DNA from: Clostridia bacterium
GTDB lineage: Bacteria > Bacillota > Clostridia > Christensenellales > Aristaeellaceae
Length of the DNA: 37,766 nt
NCBI GenBank assembly: GCA_017527065.1
Contig: JAFXQO010000017.1
Span: forward strand, 1 to 37,766
Direction: 5' to 3'
Part shown: positions 4,048 through 20,711 of the stretch, piece by piece
Layout: every line of letters starts with the position of its first letter
Position numbering within the stretch: position 1 is the first letter of the stretch
Made by a program: the position numbers and the translations under genes
Notes under the pieces: generated by a model
The model's input: the letters and a program-made list of their open reading frames with translations, nothing else
What the model was told of the DNA's origin: nothing
Databases searched by the model: none

Positions 4048-4076
4048 TAGCTAAATCGAAGGCATGACCCTGAAAG

Positions 4077-4288: not shown

Positions 4289-4336
4289 TGAAATGGAATG
4301 CCTGCCTGAATCCCTGAAACCGGGAGGTATCTTCGC

Positions 4337-5734: not shown

Positions 5735-5744
5735 GGAGGCGCGC

Positions 5745-6842: not shown

Positions 6843-6855
6843 CCGGGAGGCCGTT

Positions 6856-7557
6856 ATGGAACAGAAGATCACAGCCGTCCTGTGGGACGTGGACGGGACG
6901 CTTCTCGATTTCCAGGCCGCGGAGAAGACGGCCATCCGCGCCTGCTTCGCGGCCTTCGGCCTGGGCGAATGCGACGACGCCATGCTCCGGCGCTACATTG
7001 AAATCAACCTGGGCTACTGGAAGCGGATCGAGCGGGGCGAAATCGGCAAGGGCCGCGCGCTGGTGGCCCGCTTCGAGGACCTCTTCGGGGAATACGGCTT
7101 GCCGGCCGGCGCGGCCCCGGCCTTCAACGACGAATACCAGATCCGCCTGGGGGACACGGTGGCCTTCGAGCCCGGCGCGCTGGAGGCGGTGACGGCGCTG
7201 CATGGCGCGGTGAAGCAGTACGCCGTGAGCAACGGCACCCGCGTCGCCCAGCGCCGCAAGCTGAAAAACTCCGGCCTGGACGAATTGCTGGACGGCGTGT
7301 TCATCTCGGAGGAGATCGGCGCGGAGAAGCCCGACGGGGCGTTCTTCGACCACGTGTTCAGCCACATCGACGCGCCGCGGGCGGAGACTGTCATCATCGG
7401 CGACTCCCTCACCAGCGACATGCTGGGCGGCGAACGGGCGGGGATCCGCCGCTGGTGGTACAACCCGCAGGGCCTCGCGCCGAAGGGCCCCTCGATCGAC
7501 AGAGACATCCGCGACCTGGCGGATATTCCCGCCCTGGTCGCAGGAATCAACGGATAG
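6856..7557 (+). CDS. HAD-superfamily hydrolase, YjjG-type nucleotidase
   Basis: A 233-residue HAD hydrolase similar in layout to the YjjG/YfnB pyrimidine 5'-nucleotidases, which clean non-canonical nucleoside monophosphates. The motif-I nucleophile and acid are D11 and D13 (WDVDGTLLDF), motif II is VSNGT (124-128), motif III is K158 (GAEKPDGAFF) and motif IV is GDSLTSD (182-188). The cap lies between motifs I and II, as in subfamily I. It is the third gene of the MBOAT operon (13-nt gap) but has no obvious functional link to acetylation. GGGAGG before ATG 6856 supports the start. The exact substrate is uncertain. Confidence 0.82.
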   Translation: MEQKITAVLWDVDGTLLDFQAAEKTAIRACFAAFGLGECDDAMLRRYIEINLGYWKRIERGEIGKGRALVARFEDLFGEYGLPAGAAPAFNDEYQIRLGDTVAFEPGALEAVTALHGAVKQYAVSNGTRVAQRRKLKNSGLDELLDGVFISEEIGAEKPDGAFFDHVFSHIDAPRAETVIIGDSLTSDMLGGERAGIRRWWYNPQGLAPKGPSIDRDIRDLADIPALVAGING

Positions 7558-7561
7558 AAAA

Positions 7562-7601
7562 CGCCGCCGCCGCGAAAAACGCGGGGCGGCGCTTTTGTTT
7601 T
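7562..7601. terminator. bidirectional intrinsic terminator
   Basis: A 12-bp GC stem (7562-7574 with 7580-7591, one bulged G) with an AAAAA loop is followed by CTTTTGTTTT on the plus strand. On the minus strand the same stem is followed by GTTTTCTAT. It sits between the convergent HAD and UroD-family genes and can end both transcripts. Confidence 0.85.
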
Positions 7602-7608
7602 ATCTGGC

Positions 7609-8733
7609 TCAGAACGCCTTCCTGAACAGCTCGCAGTAGTAGGCCACCAGCTCGTATTTCGCGTCCGGCGGGATGCGGTGGTCGGGGCAGGGGATGTAGC
7701 CGCCCAGGTCCACCAGGGGCTTGAGCCGCTCGATCTCCGCCTCCACGGCGGCCCTGTCCTGCGAAAAGACGCGCTTGTCCATGCCGCCCACGCCCTTGAG
7801 GGCCCGGCCGTATTTCGCGCGCCAGGGCGCGATGGAAGCGCCCCAGGTGCCCACCTCGATGGGGAACATGGTGTTCACGCCGTTTTCCAGCCAGATGGGC
7901 AGCAGCTTGTCGATGCAGCCGTCGCAGTCCAAGGAGATCTGGTCGATGCCGTAGGAGGCCAGCAGGTCGGCGAAGCGCCGGTAGTGGGGGCCGACGTATT
8001 CGGCGAACACCTCGGGATTCACCAGCGGCCCGTTCTTGAAGCAGATGTCTTCCCAGAAATGCGCGCCGTCGAAGGCGACGCCGCATTTGAGCGATTCCTC
8101 CGCCACCCGGAGCGCCAGGTCCGCCATGGTGTCGATGATCTCCTTATAGAGGTCCTCGTCGTCCACCTGGAGGTAGGACAGCTCCACCACGCCCAGCATG
8201 TCGCGGATGGTGCCGTACAGGCTGCCGCAGTGCAGCCAGAGGGGATATTCACGCGCCGCGGATTCCTCCGCCAGCTTCTTGAACAGCGCGCGGGGGATGC
8301 GGTCGTCGGAATACTGCAGGCGGGGAAGGTACTCGCGCTCCCAGGCCTCCCGGCCGGTGAGGAGCGTGCCCAGCTCGCCGGGGATGCTTTCCAGCCCGGG
8401 CTTGACGCGCACCAGGTGGCCGTTGCCGTCCTGCATCACGCGGGAGCCGTCCTTCTCCACACGCAGCACCTTGCTCTCGAAGGCGGGAAAGAGGGCGTTT
8501 CGCCCGTTCACGCAGCTCTGCCAGCTGAAGTCGAAGCCCAGCTGGTCCATGACCTCCCGGTCGGCCGGCCCGTTGTCGCCGGTGGTTTTGTAGAGCTCGG
8601 CGGTCTCCCGGCGCACGTGGCCTTCGGCGGCCCATTTGTCCAGCGTCTCCGTCCAGTAGCCGAAGGCCACGCAGGGCAGGCGGTCGTAGCTTTCATAGTG
8701 CATCACGGCGCGGACGCGTTCGCGGTGGTTCAT
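7609..8733 (-). CDS. UroD-family (corrinoid methyltransferase-type) protein, copy 1
   Basis: A 374-residue protein of the uroporphyrinogen decarboxylase-like superfamily, in the branch that contains corrinoid methyltransferases (MtaA/MtbA and acetogen O-demethylase subunits) rather than HemE. It starts with MNHRERVRAVMHYESYDRLP, the usual N-terminus of this group. At the place of the His-x-Cys zinc site it has LDCDGC (268-273), and near the end PCPDHRIPP (348-356). ATG 8733 is preferred over an in-frame TTG at 8739 because AGGGG lies 8 nt upstream. It follows the homocysteine methyltransferase-like gene by 21 nt, so the two are probably co-transcribed. The methyl donor is unknown. Confidence 0.8.
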   Translation of the reverse strand: MNHRERVRAVMHYESYDRLPCVAFGYWTETLDKWAAEGHVRRETAELYKTTGDNGPADREVMDQLGFDFSWQSCVNGRNALFPAFESKVLRVEKDGSRVMQDGNGHLVRVKPGLESIPGELGTLLTGREAWEREYLPRLQYSDDRIPRALFKKLAEESAAREYPLWLHCGSLYGTIRDMLGVVELSYLQVDDEDLYKEIIDTMADLALRVAEESLKCGVAFDGAHFWEDICFKNGPLVNPEVFAEYVGPHYRRFADLLASYGIDQISLDCDGCIDKLLPIWLENGVNTMFPIEVGTWGASIAPWRAKYGRALKGVGGMDKRVFSQDRAAVEAEIERLKPLVDLGGYIPCPDHRIPPDAKYELVAYYCELFRKAF

Positions 8734-8754
8734 CTGCAAGTCCCCTTTTCGTGT

Positions 8755-9594
8755 TTATTGGCCGAAAATGCGTTTCCCCAGCGCGCGGATATAGGCCGCG
8801 TTGCTGCCGCAGCACCCGCCGATGTACTTCACGTCGTGCTCCAGCGCGGGCAGGCAGTCCTCAACGAAGGTTTCGATGTCGTACTGGACCTTCTCTTCGC
8901 CGTCCTGCAGGATGGGCTTGCCGGCGTTGGGCTTGAAGATCAGCGGCAGGTCGGTGTATTCCCGGAAGGAGGCGATCACGGGCACGGCCTTGTCAGGCCC
9001 CAGGGAGCAGTTGATGCCGATGCCCGCCAGGGGAATGTCCTTCATCGCGTCCACGAAGTACTCCACCGAGTGGCCCATGATGGTCTTGCCCACCTCGGTG
9101 AAGGTGAGCATGGAGAAGATGGGCAGGTTATGTTTGGCGGCGGCCTCGCCGGCGATGCGCATCATGTCCGCGTCCATGAAGGTCTGCAGCGTGATGACGT
9201 CCGGCTTTTCGGAAACGCCCGCGGAAATCTGCTCGTCGAAGGCGGCGTAAGCGTCCTCCTCGGTGAGGTCGCCGTAGGGCTCCAGGAGCAGCGGCAGCGG
9301 CCCCACGGCCAGCGCCACCTTGGCCCGGCCCGCGATGGTCTCCCGCGCCAGGCGCACGCCCGTTGAGACGATTTCCTGAACGGCGTAGTCCGTCTTGCCC
9401 ACGGCGTAGCGGTTGGCCCCGAAGGTATTCGCCAGGATGATCTTCGCGCCGGCGTCGACGTATTCCTCCGCCAGCTCCTTCACGATGGCGGGGTTCTCCA
9501 GGTTATATCGCCACACGGCCACCTTATCACTCGATTTTTCCCAAAGGCTGGTGCCCACGGCCCCGTCCAGCAGCACAATGTCGTCCCGTCTCAC
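8755..9594 (-). CDS. homocysteine S-methyltransferase domain protein (MetH-N/BHMT-like)
   Basis: A 279-residue single-domain Pfam S-methyl_trans protein, the fold of BHMT, MmuM and the N-terminal part of MetH. All three zinc-thiolate ligands are visible: C196 in GINCSLGP, and C261-C262 in GGCCGS. The early LDGAVGTSL and ANTFGANRY segments are family hallmarks. It lacks the cobalamin and folate domains of MetH, so it would need a methyl donor or a separate corrinoid protein. GTG 9594 has AGAGGGGG 8 nt upstream. It shares an operon with UroD copy 1. Homocysteine is the likely acceptor by family; the donor is inferred to be a methyl-corrinoid protein or a small methyl compound. Confidence 0.82.
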   Translation of the reverse strand: MRRDDIVLLDGAVGTSLWEKSSDKVAVWRYNLENPAIVKELAEEYVDAGAKIILANTFGANRYAVGKTDYAVQEIVSTGVRLARETIAGRAKVALAVGPLPLLLEPYGDLTEEDAYAAFDEQISAGVSEKPDVITLQTFMDADMMRIAGEAAAKHNLPIFSMLTFTEVGKTIMGHSVEYFVDAMKDIPLAGIGINCSLGPDKAVPVIASFREYTDLPLIFKPNAGKPILQDGEEKVQYDIETFVEDCLPALEHDVKYIGGCCGSNAAYIRALGKRIFGQ

Positions 9595-9621
9595 GGCGTT
9601 TGCCCCCTCTTGTTTTTTACC

Positions 9622-9650
9622 AGTATATCATGGCGCGGGAAGCAAGTCAA
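9622..9650 (-). promoter_or_regulatory. promoter of the homocysteine methyltransferase-UroD operon
   Basis: On the minus strand TTGACT (9645-9650) and TATACT (9622-9627) are separated by exactly 17 bp. The transcript would start about 20 nt before the GTG start, leaving almost no leader and so no room for a riboswitch. Confidence 0.8.
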
Positions 9651-9675
9651 TCGGGAGAAAAGAGAGGGAAAAACT

Positions 9676-10120
9676 GCGTTTTTGAAAGAAATGCGCGGCG
9701 AAATTATAATGGGTCAACGGCGCATGTGGTAAGAAACCTCTTCCCCCCGCCCCCTTCCCCGCTCTCCGCGGGGACGGGGGAAAAATTTGTTGTGGGCTTC
9801 GCCCACACTGAGCAGGGCTTCGCCCTGCACCCCATAGCCACAAATTCGTAACCTTTCGTGCAAAACGCAACGCTTGTTTTCTGCTCAAGCAGGGCGCGGG
9901 GCGGCAGCCCCGCACCTTTAAGCCCCCTTCCCCGCGATGAGCGGGGCGAATGAGCTGCGCGCCTGTGGCGCAATCAGCGGCGAACGAGCCCAATGAGCAA
10001 GGGAGCGTGACGCCGAAGGCGGCAGGCGACCATTGCGAATTGAGGAGAAGGGGGTTGGGGGATGGGGTGTGCACAGCATAAGCCGTTGACTCATCGCGCT
10101 CCATTTTATTTCATCAAGCG
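9676..10120. repeat. composite interspersed repeat with terminal inverted repeats, copy B
   Basis: Non-coding element of about 445 bp between the two divergent promoters. The outer segments (9676-9730 and 10082-10120) are diverged inverted copies built around ATGGGTCAACGGC / GCCGTTGACTCAT. The 22 bases at 9709-9730 are identical, in inverted orientation, to 13881-13902 in copy C. Inside lie an inverted version of the copy-A hairpin segment (9775-9833) and the 125-bp block 9930-10054 shared with 3875-3999. No protein-like ORF is conserved. This accounts for most of the gap 9595-10216; the rest is promoters. Confidence 0.75.
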
Positions 10121-10138
10121 ATGTGAAAACATTTCCCC

Positions 10139-10167
10139 GTGACATACCGGCGGGAAAATGGTAAAAT
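10139..10167 (+). promoter_or_regulatory. pta promoter
   Basis: GTGACA (10139-10144) and TAAAAT (10162-10167), each one base from consensus, are separated by 17 bp. The predicted start lies about 40 nt upstream of the pta start codon. Confidence 0.65.
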
Positions 10168-10216
10168 AAGGCTGGAAGCGAGGAACACGAAATGGCTTCC
10201 GGAGAGGGACAAAGAC

Positions 10217-11215
10217 ATGAGCATTGCGGAAAAAGTAAAGGAAAAGGCCAAAAAGGACGTGAAGCGCATCGTTCTGCCGGAGGGCGACGAGCCGCGCACC
10301 GTGCAGGCCGCGGCGATCCTCAGCCGGGAGGGCCTGGCGGAGCCGGTTCTGCTGGGAGAAGAAGAAAAGATCCGCTCGGCCGCGCGGGAAACGGGCGCGG
10401 ACATCGGCGGCATAGCGCTCATCGACCCCGCTGCCAGCGAAAAGACGCCCGCCTACGCGGAGGCGCTGTATGAGCTGCGCAAGGCCAAGGGCCTCACGCG
10501 GGAGCAGGCCGCGCGGCTGGCCCTCGATCCCATGTATTATGGCATGATGATGGTCAAGCTGGGCGACGCCGACGGCCTCGTCTCCGGCGCGGCGCACTCC
10601 ACCGGCGACATGCTGCGCCCGGCGCTGCAGATCATCAAAACGAAGCCCGGCATGAAGTCGGTGTCCTCCTGCTTCATCATCGAGTGCCCGAACAAGGCGG
10701 TCGGCGAGGAGGGCGTGCTTGTGTTCTCCGACTGCGTGGTCATGACCTGCCCCACGGCGGAGGAGCTGGCGGGCATCGCCGTGGCCGCGGCGGAATCGGC
10801 GCGGGCGCTGTGCGGCTTTGAGGAGCCCCGGGTGGCTCTGCTGTCCTTCTCCACGAAGGGCAGCGCCCAGCACGCGCTGGTGGACAAGGTGCGGGAAGCG
10901 ACGGATCTGGCCCATGAGATGGCCCCCGGCCTCCTGCTGGACGGGGAATTGCAGCTGGACGCGGCGCTGGTGCCGGAGGTCGCCGCGCTCAAGGCGAAGG
11001 ACAGCCCGGTGGCCGGGCGGGCGAACGTGCTCATCTTCCCCGATCTGCAGGCGGGCAACATCGGCTACAAGATCGCCCAGCGCTTCGCCGGGGCGAACGC
11101 CTTCGCCGTGCTCCAGGGCATGGCGAAGCCCTGCAACGACCTTTCCCGCGGCTGCACGGTGGAGGACATCGTGACCACGGCGGCGTTCACGGCGGTGCAG
11201 GCCCAGGAAGGATAA
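10217..11215 (+). CDS. pta: phosphate acetyltransferase
   Basis: A 332-residue protein of the short, single-domain phosphotransacetylase type. It interconverts acetyl-CoA plus phosphate with acetyl phosphate plus CoA in acetate fermentation or acetate use. Family segments are [17 protein letters not shown] near the N-terminus, [20 protein letters not shown] in the middle, and [20 protein letters not shown] followed by DLSRGC near the C-terminus. ATG 10217 is chosen because GGAGAGGG sits 8 nt upstream and the length then matches the family; an earlier in-frame start would lie inside the promoter. Acetate kinase, its usual partner, is not adjacent. A terminator follows directly, so the gene is monocistronic. 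Confidence 0.93.
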
Positions 11216-11225
11216 TCGACGGACA

Positions 11226-11269
11226 GGGGCCGCTTCAAAACGCGCGCGTTTTGAGGCGGCCCCTTTTTT
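11226..11269 (+). terminator. intrinsic terminator of pta
   Basis: A long GC hairpin (11226-11263, arms GGGGCCGC.TTCAAAACG and its near-complement) is followed by six T residues. There is no T-tract on the minus strand, so it serves pta only. Confidence 0.9.
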
Positions 11270-11281
11270 CATGGTAAACGG

Positions 11282-12421
11282 TTATTGCTTTACCCCTACG
11301 TCCTTCCAGGCGGCCTGCAGGCCCTCGATGATGCCCAGGTGCTGCGGGCAGGCGGCCTCGCACGCGCCGCACTGGACGCACTTGTCCGGCGTCGCGCCGT
11401 CCCGCAGGATGGCCTTCATGCCCCAGTTGTCCATGGGGTCGCCGCCGTAGAGCGAGGTGTCGTTCCACACGGAGAACAGGCCGGGGATGTTCACGCCGTT
11501 CGGGCAGGGCATGCAGTAGCGGCAGCCGGTGCAGCCGATCTTCGTGCGGGCGAGGTAGGCCGCGCGCACGTCGTCCATCAGCTTCAGTTCGGCCTCGGTC
11601 ATGACGCCCGGCTCCACGGTGTCGAAGATGCGCAGGTTGTCGTCGATCTGCTCGGCCTCGTTGCAGCCGGAGAGCACCGTCGCCACCTCGGGATGGTTGC
11701 ACAGCCAGCGGAACGCCCACTCCACCGGCGACCGCTTCACGGGGAAGGCGTCGTAGAGCGCCTGCACGTTGTCCGGCGCTTTGGCCAGGCGGCCGCCCAG
11801 CAGGCCCTCCATGATGACCACCGGGACGCCCAGCTTTCCGGCCAGCTCCAGGCCCTTTGTGCCGGCCTGGTTCTCAACGTCCATGAAGTTGTACTGAATC
11901 TGCACCATGTCCCAGTCGTAATCGGTGAGGATGGATTCAAATTCCTCATAGGGGCCGTGGAAGGAGAAGCACTTGTAGCGGATCCTGCCCGCCTTCTTCA
12001 TGTCGGTGAAGAATTCCGGCGCGCCGATGGACTTGAAGTACTCCCACTTTTCCCTGTTGATGCCGTGCATCAGGTAGAAGTCGATGTGGTCGGTCTGCAG
12101 CTTCTTCAGCTCCTCTTCCAGCAGCGCCTCCATCTCGGCCCGGTTGTGCACGGCTTCGGCGGGCATCTTGGTGGCAATGGTCACCCGGTCGCGGTAGCCG
12201 TCTTGCAGGGCCTTGCCCAGCACGATTTCCGACGTGCGGTTCAGGTACACATAGGCGGTGTCGATGTAGGTCACGCCGCCGTCGATGGCGCGGCGGATCA
12301 GGGAAACGGCCTTCCCCTCGTCGATGACGCTGTCGCCGGAGGGCGCGCCGTTGAAGCGCATGCAGCCCAGGCCGAAGGCCGAGCCCTGTATGCCCAGCTT
12401 GCCGAAATTGCGGTATTTCAT
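11282..12421 (-). CDS. aldo/keto reductase with C-terminal 2x[4Fe-4S] domain
   Basis: A 379-residue oxidoreductase. The N-terminal aldo/keto reductase barrel shows the catalytic tetrad as D54 and Tyr (Y57 or Y59) in DTAYVYLNR, K85 in IATKMP and H119 in FYLMHG. The C-terminus adds C297-x2-C300-x2-C303-x2-C306 and C348-x2-C351-x2-C354-x3-C358, enough for two [4Fe-4S] clusters. This architecture is common in anaerobes and suggests electron exchange with ferredoxin as well as NAD(P)H. Its physiological substrate is unknown. AAGGAGG 6-7 nt before ATG 12421 fixes the start. It has its own promoter and an unusual G10 tract just after the predicted transcription start. Confidence 0.88.
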   Translation of the reverse strand: MKYRNFGKLGIQGSAFGLGCMRFNGAPSGDSVIDEGKAVSLIRRAIDGGVTYIDTAYVYLNRTSEIVLGKALQDGYRDRVTIATKMPAEAVHNRAEMEALLEEELKKLQTDHIDFYLMHGINREKWEYFKSIGAPEFFTDMKKAGRIRYKCFSFHGPYEEFESILTDYDWDMVQIQYNFMDVENQAGTKGLELAGKLGVPVVIMEGLLGGRLAKAPDNVQALYDAFPVKRSPVEWAFRWLCNHPEVATVLSGCNEAEQIDDNLRIFDTVEPGVMTEAELKLMDDVRAAYLARTKIGCTGCRYCMPCPNGVNIPGLFSVWNDTSLYGGDPMDNWGMKAILRDGATPDKCVQCGACEAACPQHLGIIEGLQAAWKDVGVKQ

Positions 12422-12481
12422 GGGATTCCTCCTTCTCGCTTATGGACGTGCGCGGGGCGCGTTCCCGCCGGAAGCCCTTCG

Positions 12482-12491
12482 CCCCCCCCCC
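12482..12491. repeat. homopolymeric C10/G10 tract
   Basis: Ten consecutive C residues on the plus strand, that is G10 in the leader of the aldo/keto reductase transcript. It starts within a few bases of the predicted transcription start. Such tracts can vary in length by slippage. Confidence 0.7.
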
Positions 12492-12499
12492 ACAATTAC

Positions 12500-12528
12500 T
12501 TTATATCCTAAAGTATGCGCGAAGTCAA
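12500..12528 (-). promoter_or_regulatory. promoter of the Fe-S aldo/keto reductase gene
   Basis: On the minus strand TTGACT (12523-12528) and TATAAA (12500-12505) are exactly 17 bp apart. The transcript would begin near 12493 and read through the G10 tract. Confidence 0.78.
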
Positions 12529-12556
12529 GCCCTTTTTTGAGGCGTTTTTCGCCGGG

Positions 12557-13474
12557 TCAGAATCCCTGCCAGCCGGCCCGGACCGCGCCCACCACCGACG
12601 CGCCGGGATTGACGGCATGGGCGTTGATGGTGACGGTGTAGGCGTGTCCGGCCGCGAGGGAGACGGTCTTCCCGCCGTCAAAGGTCAGCTCTTCGTAGGT
12701 TCCCTCGTCGCCGAAGGCTTCCGCAAGGCCGAACCACAGGGTTCCGGTCCCGTCCCTGAGGGCGTATTCCCCGCCGGGCAGGAAGGCGGTGGCCCGGCCC
12801 TCGCCGCCGATGAACAGCGCCGCGGCCAGCGCGCCGTCGGCGGCGTAGATTTTCACCAGCGTGGCGCGTTCCGTTTCATCGTTGACCTGCACGGTCAGCT
12901 CCACGCCGCGGCCCCTGAGGGCGTCGTCGCGGTAGATCTCGCCGTCTTCGGGCCAGGCGAGGGCGCAGGCGCCGGCGCGCGCCGCCCAGTCGCCCCAGCG
13001 GCTTTCGATGAAATCCCGCCGGGCCGTGTAAAAGCGGCCGGCCAGACGGTTCACGCAGCCGCGGATGTAGAGGTATTCCCCGCCGAGGGGCCCGGTCAGC
13101 AGCACGGCCGCCGCGTCCGGGTCCCGCAGGGCCAGCAGCCGCGGGAGCAGGGCCGCGTAGCCGTCGGCGTCCAGCGCGCCGGTCTCCGCCAGCCCGAAAG
13201 ATGCCTGAACGGCGTTCAGCGCGCTCAGGGTCTTCGCCCCGAATATGCCGTCCGCGACGATGTCCTGCCCGAAATCGACCAGCGTCTCCTGCACGCCGCG
13301 GACCGCCTCGCCGCGATTTCCTATCCCCACGGGGCCCTCCGCCCGGAGCGCCTCGTATGTTTCGCGGCAGCCGCCGCCCAGCGCGTCCATCACATCCCCC
13401 AGCGGCGCTTCGGCCAGGGCCGGCGCGGCGCAGAGCAGCGCCAGCGCGATCAGTGCGGAAAGCAGCTTCTTCAT
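12557..13474 (-). CDS. secreted protein with peptidoglycan-binding-like domain
   Basis: A 305-residue exported protein of unknown function. ATG 13474 gives a classical signal peptide (KK, hydrophobic LLSALIALALL, then APALAEA with cleavage expected after ALA). Residues about 50-115 resemble the three-helix PG_binding_1 domain: RGEAVRGVQETLVDFG, then ADGIFGAKTLSALNAVQ, then GALDADGYAALL. The remaining roughly 190 residues are not recognised and look beta-rich, with a hydrophobic aromatic C-terminus. GGGAGGA 7 nt upstream fixes the start. It stands alone between an Fe-S reductase and a repeat block. A role at the cell wall is inferred from the domain and export signal only. Confidence 0.75.
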   Translation of the reverse strand: MKKLLSALIALALLCAAPALAEAPLGDVMDALGGGCRETYEALRAEGPVGIGNRGEAVRGVQETLVDFGQDIVADGIFGAKTLSALNAVQASFGLAETGALDADGYAALLPRLLALRDPDAAAVLLTGPLGGEYLYIRGCVNRLAGRFYTARRDFIESRWGDWAARAGACALAWPEDGEIYRDDALRGRGVELTVQVNDETERATLVKIYAADGALAAALFIGGEGRATAFLPGGEYALRDGTGTLWFGLAEAFGDEGTYEELTFDGGKTVSLAAGHAYTVTINAHAVNPGASVVGAVRAGWQGF

Positions 13475-13563
13475 GGAACGTTCCTCCCGAATCAACAGGT
13501 CTTTCTTTACCAGACGGGTTCATTATGCGACAGGTTCCCGACGGGGGTTGTCTCATTTGGAAT

Positions 13564-13935
13564 AACGTTTGATGAAATGAACGGCGGCGCGCGATGGGTC
13601 AACGGCACATGCAATACAGACCCCATCCCCTGCACCCCTTCCCCGCTCATCGCGGGGACGGGGAAAAGTTTGTTGTGGGCTTCGCCCACACGGAGCAGGG
13701 CTGCCGCCCTGCACCCGCTTCGTTAATGCGTGATGCGCCCGTCGTAAACCCGGGGTCTGGGGCCTCCCGGCCCCAGTGGGTGCAGGGCAAAGCCCTGCTC
13801 AGCATGGGGCGAAGCCCCATATCTATTCTTTCCCCCGTCCCCGCGAAGAGCGGGGAAGGGGTGCAGGGGAAGGGGTGTGCACCACATGCGCCGTTGACCC
13901 ATCGCATTTTCGCATCGCATTTCTTCCAAAACGCG
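13564..13935. repeat. composite interspersed repeat with terminal inverted repeats, copy C
   Basis: Non-coding element of about 370 bp. Its ends are inverted copies: 13564-13611 (with ATGGGTCAACGGC) and 13881-13935 (with GCCGTTGACCCAT), including the same flanking segment found at the left end of copy B. Internally, the hairpin segment occurs twice in opposite orientation (13655-13716 and 13778-13845). It lacks the 125-bp block of copies A and B. The rest of the gap 13475-14062 holds the promoter of the following gene and nothing else recognisable. Confidence 0.75.
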
Positions 13936-13990
13936 CCTTTTCGCTCTCATTTTTCATATGAACCGCCCCCTCTCCCCGCCCCACGCAAGG

Positions 13991-14019
13991 TTGAAATGCG
14001 GCCGGGCGCGTGCTATAAT
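13991..14019 (+). promoter_or_regulatory. promoter of UroD copy 2
   Basis: TTGAAA (13991-13996), a 17-bp spacer and a perfect TATAAT (14014-14019) preceded by TGC, an extended -10. The gene starts about 37 nt after the predicted transcription start, and a terminator follows the gene. Confidence 0.85.
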
Positions 14020-14062
14020 GGGCCCGTGAAAGAGGACGGCGGCAGCCGGGGGAGTGAAGGCC

Positions 14063-15067
14063 ATGACCACGCGCGAACGATTCCTGCGCACGATGAATTT
14101 TGAGAAAACAGACCGCCTGCCCATGCTGGAATGGGCCACCTGGTGGGACAAGACCCTCGACCGCTGGAAGGGCGAGGGCCTTGAGATCGCGCCCGTGCCC
14201 GGCCTTTCCGCGGGGGAGGCGCTGCAGCTTCAAATGGGGCTCGACCTTCACCTGCAGTCCTGGATCGGCTTCCAGACCGCCGCCACGCCCAGGCCCGCCT
14301 CCCACGGCGCGCCCATCGTGACCTCCATGGAGGAATACGAACGCGTGAAGCCCACGCTCTACCCCGAGCGCCCGCTGGACGAGGCGCGCATGCGCCTCAT
14401 CGCCGACATGCAGAAAAAGGGCGACGCCGTGGCCTGGATCACGCTGGAGGGGCCCTTCTGGGGGCCGCGGACGCTCCTGGGCATCGAGCCGCACCTGTTC
14501 GCCTTCTACGACGAGCCGGAACTGATGCACGCCATCAACCGGGACCTTTCCGCCTACAATCAGCGCGTCTACGAGCAGGTGTGCCATTACTTCGTGCCGG
14601 ATTTCATGACCTTCGCCGAGGACATGAGCTACAACAACGGCCCCATGCTCTCCGAGGCCCTGTTCGACGAATTCCTGCTGCCCTACTACCGGGAGCAGAT
14701 TCCCGCCATCAGGGCGCGGGGCACGCGGGTGTTCATCGACTCGGACGGCGACATCACCCTCGCCCTGCCCTGGTTCGCCCGGGCGGGCATCGAGGGCATA
14801 CTGCCCCTGGAGCGGCAGGCGGGCGTCGACCTGGAAGCGCTGCGCAAAACGCACCCCCGTTTCCTGTTCATCGGCCATTTCGACAAGATGACCATGCCCC
14901 TGGGCGAGGAAGCCATGCGGGCCGAGTTTGAAAGGCTGCTGCCCGTCATGCGGCAGGGCGGCTTCGCGCCGTCGGTGGATCACCAGACGCCGCCGGGGGT
15001 GTCGCTGGAGAACTATCGAATCTACCTGAAGCTTTTCAGGGAATACGCGGAGAAGGCCGCGGGGTAA
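14063..15067 (+). CDS. UroD-family (corrinoid methyltransferase-type) protein, copy 2
   Basis: A 334-residue UroD-fold protein starting MTTRERFLRTMNFEKTDRLP, the same N-terminal signature as copies 1 and 3. Where zinc-dependent relatives have His-x-Cys, it has IDSDGD (225-230), so a cysteine-ligated zinc looks impossible at that site. It keeps the C-terminal VDHQTPPGVSLENY (305-318), whose SLEN part matches copy 3. ATG 14063 is preferred over GTG 14054 because GGAG lies 8 nt upstream. It has its own strong promoter and terminator, and points toward the corrinoid operon. It may be a substrate-specific methyltransferase using the corrinoid protein encoded at 18230-18871, or it may have a different function. 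Confidence 0.78.
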   Translation: MTTRERFLRTMNFEKTDRLPMLEWATWWDKTLDRWKGEGLEIAPVPGLSAGEALQLQMGLDLHLQSWIGFQTAATPRPASHGAPIVTSMEEYERVKPTLYPERPLDEARMRLIADMQKKGDAVAWITLEGPFWGPRTLLGIEPHLFAFYDEPELMHAINRDLSAYNQRVYEQVCHYFVPDFMTFAEDMSYNNGPMLSEALFDEFLLPYYREQIPAIRARGTRVFIDSDGDITLALPWFARAGIEGILPLERQAGVDLEALRKTHPRFLFIGHFDKMTMPLGEEAMRAEFERLLPVMRQGGFAPSVDHQTPPGVSLENYRIYLKLFREYAEKAAG

Positions 15068-15073
15068 AAATCG

Positions 15074-15107
15074 ATCGGCAAGTCTGATTCCGGCTTGCCG
15101 ATTGTTT
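15074..15107. terminator. bidirectional intrinsic terminator
   Basis: Stem ATCGGCAAG / CTTGCCGAT (15074-15082 and 15094-15102), extended by two further pairs, with TGTTT following on the plus strand and CGATTTTT following on the minus strand. It separates the convergent UroD copies 2 and 3. Confidence 0.82.
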
Positions 15108-15119
15108 ATTTCCAGCCTG

Positions 15120-16178
15120 TCAATACCGCCCCGCCTTTTTCACCGCCTCCATGATCGCCTTCATGTTTTCCAGCGACACGGAATTCGGGATGGAGTGGTC
15201 GGAGGAGAAGATGTAGCCGCCGTCCTTCTTGAGGGCGGGCACCGTGCGCCCGATCTCCGCCACGATGGCCTCGCGCTGGTCCCACAATACCGCGTTGACG
15301 CCGCCGTGCAGCACCAGTTTGTCGCCGTATTTCTCCTTGAGCAGCAGCGGCTGCATGCCCGCCTTCACCTCCAGCGGGTTCAGGCAGTCGATCCCGATGT
15401 CTATGAGGTCGTCTATGCGGGTCATCACGTCGCCGCAGGAGTGCAGGTGGGCGTAGATGCCCTTGCCGTGCGCCCAGTCGACGGCGCGCTTGTGCACGGG
15501 CTTCAGCAGGTCGCGGTACATTTCGTTTGAAAAGAACGTGGTGCCCTTGTAGCCCATGTCGTCCGGCCAGTAGATGGCGTCGAAGCAGTAGCCCGCGTCC
15601 CACACCCGCTCGAACAGCGATATGCAGCGGTCGAGGTAGGTGTTGAACATGTCCACCACCCATTCCGGCTCCTCGTACATGGCCACGAGCACCGTCTCCG
15701 TGCCGGCCATCCAGGAATGGGTCACGTCAAAGCCGAACCAGAACCCCGCCTCGATCCAGCGGCCCTCGGCGCGCCAGCGGGCGTAGTTCTCCTTGAGATA
15801 GCGCCAGGGGATGCGGTCGTCCTCCAACGTCATGCGGCGCTTGGCGTCCTCCCAGGCCTCGGGGGTGGTCACCTTGTAGTCAAGGAACTCGGGCGTGGAA
15901 TCCAGCGCCTTGAAGTTCTTGAGCGTCACGCCCCATTTCGTCGTCACGATCTGGTAGCGCTCGGTGTCCTCCAGCACCCTGACCTCGTAGCGCGGGGTGA
16001 TGTCCACGTCGATGGTCTCCACCTTGTCCACGCCGAAATAATCCCGCCAGTCGGCGCCCTCCGGCATGCCCTCCGCGCGCCAGCGGCGCAGCGTGCCCGC
16101 CCAGGGCGAATCGATGATGGGAACGCGGTCGGCCTCCCGGTGGTCGTACATGCGCTGGAAGCGCTCGCGGGTCGTCAT
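15120..16178 (-). CDS. UroD-family (corrinoid methyltransferase-type) protein, copy 3
   Basis: A 352-residue UroD-fold protein, last gene of the corrinoid operon. It alone of the three copies has the canonical His-x-Cys: H246 and C248 in HLHSCGD. A third ligand could be C265 (GIDCLNPLE) or H328 (SSDHSIPNS, 325-333). The N-terminus MTTRERFQRMYDHREADRVP is the group signature. GGAGGA 7 nt before ATG 16178 lies within the last codons of the activase gene, indicating translational coupling. Together with the corrinoid protein it would form a methyltransferase pair that either demethylates a substrate or moves the methyl group onward. HemE activity is unlikely in this context. Confidence 0.85.
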   Translation of the reverse strand: MTTRERFQRMYDHREADRVPIIDSPWAGTLRRWRAEGMPEGADWRDYFGVDKVETIDVDITPRYEVRVLEDTERYQIVTTKWGVTLKNFKALDSTPEFLDYKVTTPEAWEDAKRRMTLEDDRIPWRYLKENYARWRAEGRWIEAGFWFGFDVTHSWMAGTETVLVAMYEEPEWVVDMFNTYLDRCISLFERVWDAGYCFDAIYWPDDMGYKGTTFFSNEMYRDLLKPVHKRAVDWAHGKGIYAHLHSCGDVMTRIDDLIDIGIDCLNPLEVKAGMQPLLLKEKYGDKLVLHGGVNAVLWDQREAIVAEIGRTVPALKKDGGYIFSSDHSIPNSVSLENMKAIMEAVKKAGRY

Positions 16179-16181
16179 GGC

Positions 16182-17660
16182 TCATTCCTCCGGAAAAAAC
16201 ATCTGATCCATGTAGTGCTCGTTGAATTTTTTGTTGCCGCCCAGGTTCACATGCCGGGCCAGCGAGGCGATGGCGCGGGTGTTTTCCTGCTTTTCCGTAT
16301 CCAGCAAGAGCTGCGCCGCCCCGGCCAGGGCCGCGTTGCCCAGCACCTTCACCCGCGAGGCCAGCGCCTCCGGGAAGAGCCCGATGGCAGCCGCGCTGTT
16401 CACGTCCAGGTGGCTGCCGAAGCCGCCGGCGATGTACAGCGTGCTCACATCCTCCTCGCCCACGCCCGCTTCCTCCAGCAGGGTCTCGATGCCCGCGGCG
16501 ATGGCGGCCTTGGCCAGCTGCACCGCGCGGATATCCCGGGGGAGCAGGGAAACGCCGCCTGACAGGGGCAATTCGTCCTCGTCCATGGCGCCGGTCTCGT
16601 CCACCAGACCCAGCTTCAGCGCCGCGGCCACGGCGTCGATCAGCCCCGAGCCGCACACGCCCACGGCCGGGGCGTCGCCGATGGTGTGCGCGCCGATCTT
16701 CCCGTCCTCCGCCCAGGCCCGGTCGATGGCCCCGCGCACGCTGCCGCAGCCGCAGGAGATGCCCGCGCCCTCGAAGGCCGGGCCCGCGGCGGTGGAGGAC
16801 ACGCGCAGCAGCCCGTCCTTCCACAGCGCGATCTCCCCGTTGGTGCCCACGTCGCACAGCAGCGACACCTCGTCCCTCTCGCACTGGCCGGCGGCCAGGG
16901 CGGCGCAGGTGATGTCCGCGCCGACGAAGGCGTGCATGCAGCGGGGCAGATACGCCGCCCGGCCCAGGAGGGGCACCGTCTCGTCGAAGAGGCAGTCGGC
17001 CTCGAAGGGCGCGTGGGAGAGCGCCTCGGGATTGCGCCCGGTCAGCAGGTACAGCATGGTGGTGTTGCCGGTCACGACCAGGCTCTCCACCCGGGCCGGG
17101 TCCAGGCCCGCCCCTCCGCAGGCGTCCTTCAGCAGCGACTCGATGGCGCCGGTGATCTCAGCCTGCATCCGGCCGAGCCCGCCCTCCAGCGCCGCGCCGA
17201 TGCGGCCCATGACGTCCGCCGCCACGGCGGTCTGGGGGTTCAGCATGCCGGCCTCGGAAAGGCACGCGCCGCTTTTCATATCGTACAGCTTCAGCGCCAC
17301 GGTGGTGGTGCCGATGTCCACCGCCGCGCCGAAGGCGCCGGGCATGGGCCTGACCGGCCTCACCTCTCCCGCCCCGGCGATCTCGATCTGCTCCATGGCG
17401 CGCGCCTCGGGCAGGACGACCGAGGCGTCGCCCAGCAGCGCGGCCTGGCAGGCCAGGCGTCGGCCGGCTTTCTCCTCCGCCGGGGTGGGCGGAGAGACCG
17501 CGCCCTCCAGGAGCACGGCGCACTTGCCGCAGCGGCCCCGCCCGCCGCAGGGCCGGGGTATAGCAAAACCGCTTTCCGCGAGAACGTCGGAAAGCGGGCG
17601 GGGTGGATTGAAGGGATGAACGAACCGTTCGCCGCCGCGAAGGATCGTCAGCTCAGCCAT
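16182..17660 (-). CDS. RACo-like ATP-dependent reductive activator of corrinoid protein
   Basis: A 492-residue protein with an N-terminal [2Fe-2S] ferredoxin domain (C38, C44, C47 and C71, the C-x5-C-x2-C...C pattern) and a long C-terminal ASKHA-like ATPase region (DUF4445 family). Actin-like segments seen are AVDIGTTTVALKLYD, VVTGNTTMLYLL, LLCDVGTNGEIAL and IAGGFGSHLD. The family uses ATP to reduce inactive Co(II) corrinoid proteins back to Co(I). It overlaps the preceding DUF2284 gene by 8 bp, with AGGAGG inside that gene, and precedes UroD copy 3 by 3 nt. Context with a corrinoid protein two genes upstream makes the role secure. Confidence 0.92.
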   Translation of the reverse strand: MAELTILRGGERFVHPFNPPRPLSDVLAESGFAIPRPCGGRGRCGKCAVLLEGAVSPPTPAEEKAGRRLACQAALLGDASVVLPEARAMEQIEIAGAGEVRPVRPMPGAFGAAVDIGTTTVALKLYDMKSGACLSEAGMLNPQTAVAADVMGRIGAALEGGLGRMQAEITGAIESLLKDACGGAGLDPARVESLVVTGNTTMLYLLTGRNPEALSHAPFEADCLFDETVPLLGRAAYLPRCMHAFVGADITCAALAAGQCERDEVSLLCDVGTNGEIALWKDGLLRVSSTAAGPAFEGAGISCGCGSVRGAIDRAWAEDGKIGAHTIGDAPAVGVCGSGLIDAVAAALKLGLVDETGAMDEDELPLSGGVSLLPRDIRAVQLAKAAIAAGIETLLEEAGVGEEDVSTLYIAGGFGSHLDVNSAAAIGLFPEALASRVKVLGNAALAGAAQLLLDTEKQENTRAIASLARHVNLGGNKKFNEHYMDQMFFPEE

Positions 17661-18210
17661 GATCTGCCTCCTGAAACAGCACCAGGCCGAAATACGTCAC
17701 GGTATTCGCGCCGTTGATGTATTTCAGCGGGGTATGCTTGGTCGTGTTATACACGTCGATGCCGCAGCTCTCCATCGAGGCCAGCGCCCGGCCCGGATGG
17801 CGGCAGGGCTCCCCGGTGATCTTGCCGCAGACCGCGCACAGTCCGCAGCCGCCGCCGGAGAGATGCAGCGCGCCCTCGCCCAGGACGGGCGTCAGCGCGT
17901 CCAGCAGCTTCTGGTTCACCGCCACGTACTTTTTCTTCGCCTCGGCCATGCCCTCGATGTCGAAGCTGTCCTCCAGCTGGCCGATGGTCTGGTAGAGCAG
18001 GCCCCGGTCATAGCTTCGCACCCGCGCCATCAGTTCGTCTATGGGCCCCACGTCCGGCGGGCAGGTATAGCAGCGGCCGTAGACGCCGCAGCTGTTCTTC
18101 TCACACAGGGCGCGGAAGCTGGCGCTGAGCACGATGTCTTTTTGTTCTATAAGGGCGGCTTTGGCCGCGCCGCAGTCCAGCGCGGTCTGAATCAGTCTCT
18201 CGTCTGTCAT
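17653..18210 (-). CDS. DUF2284 cysteine-rich metal-binding protein
   Basis: A 185-residue DUF2284-type protein of unknown function. Cysteines fall in two groups: C36, C41, C47 and C50 (CEKNSCGVYGRCYTCPP), and C122, C125, C128 and C136 (GGGCGLCAVCGKITGEPCRHPG), plus C149. Two Fe-S clusters are plausible. ATG 18210 is preferred to GTG 18222, which has no upstream ribosome binding site; the ATG has only a weak GGAA. It is sandwiched between corrinoid-protein and activase genes and overlaps the latter by 8 bp. This makes electron delivery to the activase, or handling of the corrinoid, a reasonable inference but no more. Confidence 0.82.
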   Translation of the reverse strand: MTDERLIQTALDCGAAKAALIEQKDIVLSASFRALCEKNSCGVYGRCYTCPPDVGPIDELMARVRSYDRGLLYQTIGQLEDSFDIEGMAEAKKKYVAVNQKLLDALTPVLGEGALHLSGGGCGLCAVCGKITGEPCRHPGRALASMESCGIDVYNTTKHTPLKYINGANTVTYFGLVLFQEADHG

Positions 18211-18229
18211 ACGTTTTTCCACGGGGCGG

Positions 18230-18871
18230 TCAGGCGCCCATGGCCTTGCAGAATTCCAGCGCCTTGTCCGCGGCGGAGGCGGCGTCGGGGGTGTAGGCGT
18301 CCGCGCCGATCTTCTGGCAGTATTCGTCGGTGACGGGCGCGCCGCCGATCATGATCTTCACCTTGTCGCGGATGCCCGCCGCCTCGGCCGCCTTCACCAC
18401 GTCCGCCATGACGCCCATGGTGGTGGTGAGCAGCGCGGAGCAGGCGATGATCTGGCAGCCCTCGTTCTTCGCGGTCTCGACGAAGGTGTCCGGCGACACG
18501 TCGGTGCCCAGGTCGATGACCTCCAGGCCCTTGCCCTCCATCATCATCTTGACCAGGTTCTTGCCGATGTCGTGCAGATCGCCCTGGACGGTGCCGATGC
18601 ACACCTTGCCGCTGGCCTTGACGCCCTCGGCCACCAGCAGGGGCTTGAGGATCTGCGCGCCCATGTTCATGGCGCGGGCCGCGACCAGCACCTCGGGCAC
18701 GAACACTTCGTTGTTCTTGAATTTTTCGCCGATGACGTTCATGCCGGCCACCAGGCCCTCGTCGAGAATCTGCTCGGCGGGAATGCCCTCGTCGATGGCC
18801 TGCTGGACCAGCGCCTTGACATCTTTCGCGCGGCCGGCCTGCAGTTTCAGGGAAATGTCCTCAAGAATCAT
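18230..18871 (-). CDS. corrinoid (cobalamin-binding) methyl-carrier protein, MtbC/MttC type
   Basis: A 213-residue two-domain corrinoid protein. Residues 1-85 form the helical MetH cap-like domain (GLVAGMNVIGEKF, then VPEVLVAARAMN). Residues 88-213 form the B12-binding Rossmann domain, with the base-off ligand motif D98-x-H100-x-x-G103 (GDLHDIG), S145-type SALLTTTM and IGGAPVT. It carries the methyl group between UroD-fold methyltransferases and an acceptor enzyme. It is the first gene of a four-gene operon, with GGGAGG 8 nt before the ATG. It is the only corrinoid protein in the window, so the other UroD copies may share it. Confidence 0.94.
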   Translation of the reverse strand: MILEDISLKLQAGRAKDVKALVQQAIDEGIPAEQILDEGLVAGMNVIGEKFKNNEVFVPEVLVAARAMNMGAQILKPLLVAEGVKASGKVCIGTVQGDLHDIGKNLVKMMMEGKGLEVIDLGTDVSPDTFVETAKNEGCQIIACSALLTTTMGVMADVVKAAEAAGIRDKVKIMIGGAPVTDEYCQKIGADAYTPDAASAADKALEFCKAMGA

Positions 18872-18924
18872 GATAATTTCCTCCCGGTAATGTATTGGGG
18901 TGGCATGCGGTATTTCCTGTTTTG

Positions 18925-18953
18925 ATTGTACACTGTCCGGGCCGGTTAGTCAA
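18925..18953 (-). promoter_or_regulatory. promoter of the corrinoid operon
   Basis: On the minus strand TTGACT (18948-18953) and TACAAT (18925-18930) are separated by exactly 17 bp. The leader to the start codon is about 45 nt, too short for a cobalamin riboswitch. Confidence 0.82.
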
Positions 18954-19210
18954 TCATTTTCGCGGGCTCCGGGGGAATCTTTTTTGAGGGCGCGCCAGCC
19001 GTCCCCGGAGCGGTCAGGCCACAGCCTTTCCACCGCCTGTCAACACCCTGTCCACAGCGTTTTTTTCGGCTCTTTTTTTGCGGGAAACGCCGCCCGATCC
19101 ACGCCTTATATAAATAAGGTAAAAACTCCCGCATCCGGCTTTCGTCCTTTTGGGCAATTCGCGCCGAAAGATTTTCATCCCGTTTCACCTGGGTTTCACA
19201 GGCTTTCCGC

Positions 19211-19239
19211 TTGCGCGGCCGGTTCTTTTCTGGTATCAT
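19211..19239 (+). promoter_or_regulatory. probable dnaA promoter
   Basis: TTGCGC (19211-19216), a 17-bp spacer and TATCAT (19234-19239) preceded by TGG, an extended -10. The DnaA boxes lie immediately downstream, so DnaA may repress its own gene. Confidence 0.58.
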
Positions 19240-19259
19240 ATAAAGGCGATTTTTCTGAG

Positions 19260-19363
19260 TTATCCACAACCCGCGTCCACAGTTTCCACATATTGTGGAA
19301 AACATTGTGGATAATTTCTTTTCTCTACACAATATATTGCGGGCCCGAGGGCCTTTATCCACA
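19260..19363. other. oriC, upstream DnaA-box cluster
   Basis: Three perfect DnaA boxes TTATCCACA: 19260-19268 (+), 19306-19314 (-) and 19355-19363 (+). Between the first two lies a palindromic pair of near-boxes, TTTCCACA-TAT-TGTGGAAA, around 19283-19301. A looser CTGTCCACA is near 19048. This is the upstream half of a Firmicutes-type bipartite origin. The rest of the gap 18872-19400 contains two promoters and otherwise nothing recognisable. Confidence 0.88.
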
Positions 19364-19400
19364 ATACAGGGCGCTTTGCGGCGGCCCGCGGAGGTTACAA

Positions 19401-20711
19401 ATGAGCTCGTCAAACGAAAAATGGGAAAGTGTGCTCTCCCTGCTGCGTCAGGAGGTCTCGGATTATCAGTTCGCGACCTGGTTTCAGCCCCTCAGGCCGA
19501 TCTTCGTGGGCGACAACCGCATCGTGATCGAGTTTGAAAACAAATTCATCCTCGCCCTGGTCCGGCAAAACTACTACATCATGATCAAAAACGCCGTGCT
19601 GATCAGCTACGGCAAGGATTACGAGATCGACCTGGTGCCAAAGGGCGAAGCCAACCTGACCCCGACGGAATCGGACGGCAAAACTCCGCCGCCCGAACCC
19701 GATGAAATGTTCAACCCAAAATACACCTTCGACACCTTCGTGGTGGGCGCGTCGAACCGCTTCGCCCACGCGGCGTCCCTGGCCGTGGCGGAGCTGCCGG
19801 CGGACGCCTATAACCCGCTCTTCCTCTACGGCGGCGCGGGCCTGGGTAAAACGCACCTGATGCACGCCATCGGCCATCACATCCACCGCAACAACCCCTC
19901 CGCGAAGCTGCTCTACATCACCTCGGAGAATTTCACCAACCAGCTGATCAACGCCATCACCGAGCGCACCAGCCAGGAGCTTCGGGACCGGCTGCGCACC
20001 GTGGACGTGCTCATGGTGGACGACATCCAGTTCATCGCCGGCAAAACCGCCACCCAGGAGGAGTTCTTCCACACCTTCAACGAGCTCCACGGCAGCGGCA
20101 AGCAGATCATCATCTCCTCCGACCGGCCCCCAAAGGAAATCCCCACCCTGGAGGAGCGCCTGCGCTCCCGGTTCGAGTGGGGCCTGATCGCCGACATCCA
20201 GAAGCCCGACTACGAGACGCGCATCGCCATCCTGCGCAAGAAGGCCGAGCTGGAGCACCTGATCGTCAACGACGCCGTGCTCCACTACATCGCCGAGAAG
20301 ATCGAATCCAACATCCGCGAGCTGGAGGGCTCCCTCACCCGCATCAACGCCATGGCCCAGCTCTCCGGCGGCAAGATCACACTGGACATGGCCCGGGAGG
20401 CGCTGAACCGCATCATGCCCACGGGGGAATCCCACCCCGCCACGCCGGAGGGCATCCTCAAGGCCGTGGCCGCCTACTTCGGCGTCAGCGTGGCGGACAT
20501 CCTCTCCCAGCGGCGCAACCGGGAGATCGCCCAGGCGCGGCAGGTGGCCATGTATCTCACCCGGGAGCAGACCCAGCTCTCCACCACCCGCATCGGCGAC
20601 CTGTTCGGCGGGCGGGACCACACCACTGTGATGCACGCCTGCCGCCTCATCGGCGAGCTCATCGAAAAGGACGAGGAGATCCGCCGGGCGGTGGAGCAGC
20701 TGAAAAAATGA
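19401..20711 (+). CDS. dnaA: chromosomal replication initiator protein DnaA
   Basis: A 436-residue initiator ATPase that binds DnaA boxes and opens the origin. Domain I is residues about 1-80 (WESVLSLLRQEVSDYQFATW), with a short linker to about 105. The AAA+ domain begins NPKYTFDTFVVGASNRFAHA. Walker A is GGAGLGKT (144-151) and Walker B leads to VDDIQF (206-211). The C-terminal DNA-binding signature is FGGRDHTTVMHACR. ATG 19401 has GGAGG 7 nt upstream and gives the conserved N-terminus; in-frame upstream sequence is the DnaA-box region. It is flanked by origin elements on both sides, and dnaN follows after 190 bp. Confidence 0.97.
   Translation: MSSSNEKWESVLSLLRQEVSDYQFATWFQPLRPIFVGDNRIVIEFENKFILALVRQNYYIMIKNAVLISYGKDYEIDLVPKGEANLTPTESDGKTPPPEPDEMFNPKYTFDTFVVGASNRFAHAASLAVAELPADAYNPLFLYGGAGLGKTHLMHAIGHHIHRNNPSAKLLYITSENFTNQLINAITERTSQELRDRLRTVDVLMVDDIQFIAGKTATQEEFFHTFNELHGSGKQIIISSDRPPKEIPTLEERLRSRFEWGLIADIQKPDYETRIAILRKKAELEHLIVNDAVLHYIAEKIESNIRELEGSLTRINAMAQLSGGKITLDMAREALNRIMPTGESHPATPEGILKAVAAYFGVSVADILSQRRNREIAQARQVAMYLTREQTQLSTTRIGDLFGGRDHTTVMHACRLIGELIEKDEEIRRAVEQLKK

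Follow-up and report, generated by a model that had tools for sequence, protein, structure and literature searches.

Bacterial methionine synthesis is treated as inseparable from folate, a few MetE-like exceptions aside, and demethylases with the uroporphyrinogen decarboxylase (UroD) fold are usually assumed to feed acetogenesis. The acetogen O-demethylase of the vanillate type consists of a UroD-fold methyltransferase I, a corrinoid protein, a folate methyltransferase II and an activase. The stretch of DNA analyzed here (the window: 37,766 nucleotides, contig JAFXQO010000017.1 of assembly GCA_017527065.1, a member of the Aristaeellaceae referred to as G000) carries, between positions 7609 and 18871, a cluster that likewise has a UroD-fold donor enzyme, a small corrinoid protein (a relative of PDB entry 1y80) and an activase; however, the folate-dependent methyltransferase II is missing from G000, and a stand-alone zinc homocysteine methyltransferase (HMT) is the proposed acceptor enzyme instead. 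On the sequence comparisons described below, this cluster is probably a folate-free, split B12-dependent methionine synthase, in which UroD demethylases would replace the folate module of MetH.

The closest known system is the split MetH found in Phaeobacter inhibens and Ruegeria pomeroyi, whose three parts MtgC, MtgD and MtgE are accompanied by MtgB (PMC5764234, PMC12478193, PMC12366255). It has a RamA-like activase in Phaeobacter (PMC5764234, PMC12366255) and, in Ruegeria, a carrier common to betaine demethylation and methionine synthesis (PMC12478193). The window shares with it a separate PF02574 module, a stand-alone corrinoid module and a RamA/RACo-like activase. In these accounts the pterin module is always kept (PMC5764234, PMC12366255, PMC12478193), and as MtgD it links the system to folate, whereas no such module was found in the G000 assembly; furthermore, the demethylase there is MtgB (pfam06253) rather than a UroD-fold protein, and the partner protein belongs to DUF1638, which was not searched for here, rather than to the DUF2284 of the window operon.

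Folate-independent methionine formation is known from the core methionine synthases MesA–MesD, most of which are thought to take a corrinoid-borne methyl group (PMC7857596). Both features match what we propose for the window cluster, but those enzymes are MetE-type (COG0620), whereas the window HMT is MetH-type (PF02574) and G000 has no PF01717; MetE and MetH have no detectable sequence homology (PMC539065). BHMT-type enzymes form methionine without any carrier (PMC12366255). Finally, type 1 mlp gene clusters are defined by MtaA-like Mlp2 and Mlp3, their Mlps show clear MtaA/MtbA kinship (>25% identity to a characterized SCMT), and other acceptors have been proposed for them, with a possible link to methionine (PMC10418091). 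Like the window, these clusters combine several UroD-fold proteins with one corrinoid protein, one activase and no folate methyltransferase; in contrast to them, the window cluster includes a homocysteine methyltransferase. The window UroDs fall under the MtaA-family cut-offs.

Split MetH, MetE-side folate-free synthases and UroD–corrinoid clusters free of a folate methyltransferase are each already known from these sources, and their combination appears to be new: we found no description of a MetH-type folate-free synthase, or of a UroD–corrinoid–HMT combination, in the literature searched, which excluded most subscription journals. To our knowledge, this would be the first MetH-side homocysteine domain in a folate-independent synthase, the others being MetE-side. 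If true, the proposal would explain methionine synthesis in genomes without MTHFR, MetH and MetE, correct predictions of methionine auxotrophy for such genomes, give UroD-fold demethylases a biosynthetic rather than an energy role, and mean that gut-type Clostridia without a methylfolate pathway make methionine from surrounding O-methyl groups.

Gene Content and Operon Layout

The seven genes of the cluster are as follows.

7609..8739, minus strand: UroD-fold methyltransferase paired with the HMT (Pfam URO-D, 27.4 bits against a cut-off of 23.9)
8755..9594, minus strand: stand-alone HMT (PF02574, 182.5 bits; 279 amino acids; GTG start)
14054..15067, plus strand: UroD-fold methyltransferase forming a separate transcription unit that converges with the corrinoid operon (PF01208, 47.2 bits)
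15120..16178, minus strand: UroD-fold methyltransferase of the corrinoid operon (PF01208, 69.4 bits; H-S-C-G motif at residues 246-249)
16182..17660, minus strand: RACo-type corrinoid reductive activase (Fer2, RACo middle and ASKHA C-terminal domains; 33.6, 116.1 and 213.2 bits)
17653..18222, minus strand: DUF2284 protein, a member of the conserved core (PF10050, 137.9 bits)
18230..18871, minus strand: corrinoid carrier protein (PF02607, B12-binding_2, and PF02310, B12-binding; 213 amino acids; D98xH100xxG103)

All seven lie where an original prediction, made from the DNA letters alone, had placed them, and every one exceeds the Pfam gathering cut-offs; the corrinoid motif claimed there is present exactly, as D98-L-H100-D-I-G103. 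The prediction had also put the HMT in an operon with a UroD gene, and the two are indeed both on the minus strand with a gap of 15 bp. In the corrinoid operon, corrinoid and DUF2284 genes are 7 bp apart, DUF2284 and RACo genes overlap by 8 bp, and 3 bp separate RACo from the UroD gene, and this tight spacing supports two minus-strand operons.

Linkage of HMT and Corrinoid Genes across Genomes

Defining a window-type HMT as one scoring at least 275 bits with profile A2, we found stand-alone proteins of this type in 20 of the 308 genomes of the family (not counting an interrupted frame of 229 bits in G018) and, beyond it, in G531 and G361, which belong to other families; when 396 genomes of the order were searched, four matched at E ≤ 1e-85, including two from the family. 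A corrinoid gene lies in the same stretch as the HMT in 8 of these 22 genomes (G000, G003, G124, G125, G178, G096, G234 and G161, the last with the two genes ~6.3 kb apart). Three distinct arrangements occur: the divergent one of the congeners G003, G124 and G125, which is rearranged in G000; a single operon, DUF2284-RACo-UroD-corrinoid-UroD-HMT, in G096 and G178, which represent two other genera; and the G234 operon, with the order UroD-mutarotase-corrinoid-HMT-UroD behind a sugar-type ABC transporter. Linkage of the HMT with the corrinoid protein is thus found in several arrangements and genera. A DUF2284 gene is present in the G003, G124, G125, G096 and G178 clusters, and none was called in that of G051.

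When compared with the window, G096 and G178 show 80 and 78% identity for the HMT, 83 and 87% for the corrinoid protein (over 190 residues in G178), and 71 and 70% for DUF2284, with 69% for RACo (G096), whereas the corresponding UroDs show only 37/38% and 23/22%. The HMT therefore travels with its carrier, while the UroDs look exchangeable. This is what one would predict if different UroDs supplied different substrates to an unchanging core of HMT, carrier and activase. The pattern is not universal: four congeners have second HMT copies that sit away from the corrinoid cluster. G000 has two PF02574 proteins in total, and the second (L026 9832-12724, C58) lies 13 bp upstream of a hydantoinase/oxoprolinase-like gene; the neighbor of the second copy in G003 has no Pfam match, and a 20-bit kinship to a UroD is all that we see in it. 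We also note that the other-family genome G361 carries two tandem window-type HMT genes (L207 9046-10749).

In G234 (L168 424-10620), an AraC regulator is divergent from an apparent operon encoding a sugar-type binding protein, an ABC ATPase, two permeases, a UroD, an L-rhamnose mutarotase, the corrinoid protein, the HMT and a second UroD. Judged from its gene content, this operon looks like a route for methyl-sugar demethylation ending in homocysteine methylation.

Identity of the HMT, the Carrier and the UroD Proteins

Residues C196, C261 and C262 of the HMT, which we take to be the zinc ligands of the PF02574 family, are invariant across four aligned rows. Its best PDB match is the Thermotoga maritima MetH entry 1q7m (132 bits), compared to ≤33 bits for BHMT chains, and it lacks the C-terminal part of BHMT, the match to 1umy stopping at residue 314 of 407. 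It falls under the NCBIfam cut-offs of the BHMT equivalog (141 of 338 bits) and of the homocysteine S-methyltransferase model PRK09485 (78 of 215 bits), the latter presumably the S-methylmethionine type, as well as under those of MetH and PRK08645. It is not a complete MetH either, being a single chain of 279 amino acids with no pterin or B12 modules. In a tree of 46 rows, which included 22 stand-alone HMTs from 18 genomes (four with a second copy) and left out G038, G161, G531 and G361, the stand-alone HMTs form a group apart from the homocysteine modules of MetH and from the truncated MetH rows, on a long stem with support of 100/100. Going by these comparisons, the HMT is MetH-like in sequence yet represents an old, separate branch.

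The corrinoid protein has as its best PDB match 1y80 (186 bits), which we take to be the Moorella vanillate-demethylase corrinoid protein. G000, G003 and G051 each have one PF02607 match, that of G000 being the window protein.

For the UroD paired with the HMT (true start probably the ATG at 8733), a sequence-only PDB search gave no match either alone (E 0.001) or as a 34-row profile (E 1), whereas its AlphaFold model (pLDDT 92.4) has the M. mazei methyltransferase 4ay7 as best Foldseek match, followed by UroD chains; it is a putative methyl-donor demethylase. This UroD and that at 14054-15067 have no match to the MtaA-family NCBIfam models, and that at 15120-16178 reaches 31 of 235.4 bits for mtaA_cmuA and 44.5 of 244 for PRK06252. 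The 14054-15067 gene is also found next to the corrinoid operons of G051, G125 and, in partial form, G124. Against the single PF02607 match of each genome, PF01208 matches number 11 in G000 (10 over the cut-off), 16 in G003 and 15 in G051, counts that are too low because the paired UroD of the window was missed by that search and distant UroDs therefore escape it.

Distribution of the Methylfolate Branch

The original prediction saw no folate acceptor near the cluster, and this extends to the whole G000 assembly (3.07 Mb, 85 contigs, 89.31% complete), where PF00809 (pterin-binding) has no match, MtrH not having been searched as its own family. Since there is no pterin-binding protein, this assembly has no MetH, MeTr or DHPS. 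The MetE domain PF01717 also has no match in G000 and is absent from 59 of the 60 family genomes surveyed, and MTHFR has none in G000 and G003, the only congeners searched besides G051. PF00809 is absent from four of the five congeners (G000, G003, G124 and G125; completeness 89, 88, 86 and 72%).

Among the 60 family genomes, a B12 domain occurs in a MetH-sized frame (399-1056 amino acids) in 21, and MTHFR is found in 21/21 of these, so the MTHFR search detects the gene when it is present. A free corrinoid protein is found in 22 genomes, of which 19 have an HMT-domain protein, 6 a pterin protein and 4 MTHFR; 13 of the 22 have the HMT with neither pterin protein nor MTHFR. The association of HMT with free corrinoid protein gives p = 0.005 by Fisher's test (MetH genomes left out), a value that is only indicative because the genomes compared are related to one another and differ in completeness. 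PF01053 enzymes, a family that includes homocysteine-forming members, are present in 9/9 genomes searched and are candidates for homocysteine supply.

Separately, we observed eight MetH-like proteins of 379-402 amino acids in which the homocysteine module is kept and the pterin domain is a remnant.

L174, 5997-7181: truncated MetH-like
L175, 5700-6839: truncated MetH-like
L176, 5645-6805: truncated MetH-like
L177, 5488-6681: truncated MetH-like
L182, 1597-2736: truncated MetH-like
L183, 4727-5935: truncated MetH-like
L035, 9107-10300: truncated MetH-like
L036, 3449-4594: truncated MetH-like

They have no GER motif (by eye) and have lost the C-terminal half of the pterin domain, and a profile built from 16 MetH pterin domains recognizes their tails with an hhalign probability of 96% (E 2.5e-9), whereas four control profiles do not (0.1-2.2%). 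Seven of their eight genomes have a free corrinoid protein, two a pterin protein and one MTHFR. These half-lost domains may be intermediates of a transition to the folate-free synthase within the same family. The L183 gene adjoins tig-clpP-clpX, and gene sizes at L036 and L174 look similar.

Proposed Route and Alternatives

Taken together, HMT–corrinoid linkage and the lack of PF00809, MetE and MTHFR make a split, folate-free MetH-like route, as the original prediction had suggested, the best reading. UroD-fold methyltransferases would demethylate methylated substrates, of which methyl ethers are the likeliest kind, with O-methyl sugars as the leading guess, and would load the methyl onto the corrinoid protein in its Co(I) state; from there the stand-alone zinc HMT would carry it to homocysteine, giving methionine; and RACo, perhaps with DUF2284, would re-reduce oxidized cobalt. 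The comparisons show which genes are present, that they are linked, that the UroDs diverge beside a conserved core and that the G000 assembly lacks the methylfolate branch; which way the methyl flows, what the substrates are and that the HMT contacts the corrinoid protein are inferred. The folate module of MetH would thus be replaced by exchangeable UroD modules, and the role would be biosynthetic rather than energetic because homocysteine is consumed one for one; where a genus still has MetH, the operon may provide an additional route for methyl salvage. An uncultured bacterial group, with relatives known from animal guts, seems to make methionine via a B12 carrier and an HMT, with methyl groups coming from other methylated compounds rather than from folate. 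It is possible, and we suggest it only tentatively, that an HMT, a free corrinoid protein and interchangeable UroD inputs, fed by O-methyl groups in gut-type Clostridia, amount to a fifth kind of folate-independent methionine synthase.

Several observations weigh against this reading. In 14 of the 22 window-type HMT genomes the stretch read contains no corrinoid gene; five of the contigs concerned are <11 kb, the G051 loci are on separate contigs, and for G531 and G361 there is none within 14 and 17 kb, respectively. The congener G051 encodes a 268-amino-acid MeTr-family methyltetrahydrofolate:corrinoid methyltransferase (285.6 bits against an NCBIfam cut-off of 259), and the contig concerned also carries a partial match to MTHFR. 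A pterin protein is present in each of G096, G178 and G234, in two of them in a MetH-sized frame, so that the HMT is not the sole acceptor everywhere. Three of the 22 free-corrinoid genomes lack an HMT, and 7 of the 17 family genomes (among 60) without a corrinoid protein have one. The G234 UroD adjoining the HMT reaches 119.8 of 235.4 bits to the MtaA family, closer than the window UroDs, and UroD type is thus not uniform. The paired UroD has 337 relatives in genome contigs, of which the best 80 were kept, and 76 of these 80 loci lie outside the genus; their flanks, of varying length, contain no HMT in any case and a corrinoid gene in 7/76. A general HMT–UroD association beyond the genus is thus not seen (0/76). 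All genomes are metagenome-assembled, with 5-7% contamination in G124, G125 and G178, and the MTHFR and MetE searches did not cover G124/G125. In addition, no regulatory RNA links the cluster to methionine in the six loci scanned (the window, L027, L160, L161, L163 and L168; L162 was left out): at Rfam gathering thresholds there is no riboswitch or T-box, the sole matches being two tRNAs in L163, and window positions 9000-19500 at E up to 1 give one chance microRNA match.

The alternative that survives best, although we consider it unlikely, is that the HMT works alone and corrinoid-free on betaine, dimethylsulfoniopropionate (DMSP), S-methylmethionine or S-adenosylmethionine, and merely shares neighborhoods with UroD and corrinoid genes. 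The PF02574 family includes such enzymes, recombinant P. inhibens Bmt converts DMSP or betaine to methionine without folate or cobalamin (PMC12366255), and the 14 genomes with no nearby corrinoid gene are in line with this; however, the HMT is under the BHMT and PRK09485 cut-offs (though under those of MetH and PRK08645 too), is far closer to T. maritima MetH than to BHMT chains, lacks the BHMT C-terminal part, and is linked to corrinoid gene and activase repeatedly in different gene orders.

It is less probable still that the acceptor role falls to a UroD-type thiol or selenol methyltransferase, with the HMT as a side enzyme. The precedent is the type 1 cluster, in which several Mlps of the UroD superfamily accompany a corrinoid protein and an activase but no folate methyltransferase is found (PMC10418091), to which the three window UroDs, the moderate MtaA kinship of the G234 UroD, and G019 and G047 (free corrinoid protein without HMT, surrounded by UroD, CobW, DUF2284 and RACo genes) can be added; against this, the window UroDs are far under the MtaA-family cut-offs, two without any match, and the HMT is retained in the operon core of G096 and G178. 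As an observation in its own right, the G019 (L190 7029-12852) and G047 (L191 2343-6925) loci resemble an mlp-type methyl-S/Se cluster, with a thioredoxin-domain UroD in G019.

We consider it very improbable that the cluster is an ordinary O-demethylase of the acetogen type and that only the incompleteness of the metagenome-assembled genomes hides its folate methyltransferase and MTHFR. G051 does have both, and among solved structures the carrier is nearest to 1y80, the Moorella vanillate-demethylase corrinoid protein; against this, PF00809 is absent from four of five congeners and MTHFR from G000 and G003, and the MTHFR search succeeded in 21/21 genomes with a MetH-sized B12 frame.

Inversion and Repeats in the Window

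The remaining features of the region concern its layout.

9735..10105, no strand: intergenic repeat copy, inside the left inversion breakpoint interval 9653-10202
10202..18967, no strand: block inverted relative to the congener G125, keeping HMT and corrinoid gene apart (blastn of L160 against the window)
10139-11215: pta, between the HMT pair and the corrinoid operon
11282-12421: aldo/keto reductase with a 4Fe-4S domain, between the HMT pair and the corrinoid operon
12557-13495: protein with a peptidoglycan-binding domain, between the HMT pair and the corrinoid operon

The original prediction described the system as dispersed, which is true of the window but is a derived state, produced by inversion of a compact cluster. 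In G125 the layout is UroD-HMT / corrinoid-DUF2284-RACo-UroD, divergent, and relative to it the window carries an 8.8-kb inversion (10202-18967) between HMT and dnaA, which starts at ~19401 (a gene call, named by eye from its translation). By blastn, L160 (G125) is collinear at 3801-5918 with window 7549-9653, inverted at 5982-14358 against window 18967-10202, in two pieces, and collinear again at 15314-15934 with window 19031-19650, placing the right breakpoint interval at 18967-19031. Because G003, G124 and G125 are all divergent, with an HMT–corrinoid gap of 0.21-0.23 kb, inversion in the window lineage is the simplest account, with an assembly error at the left breakpoint a possible one. 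No tRNAs were found in the window.

The left breakpoint interval contains an ~370-bp repeat element. The repeat is long and intergenic, has inverted arms as well as a TTTGTTGTGGGCTTCGCCCACAC core, and lies at 9735-10105, 13586-13910 and near 3840, and the core has three copies in the window, compared to 0 in 100 shuffles.

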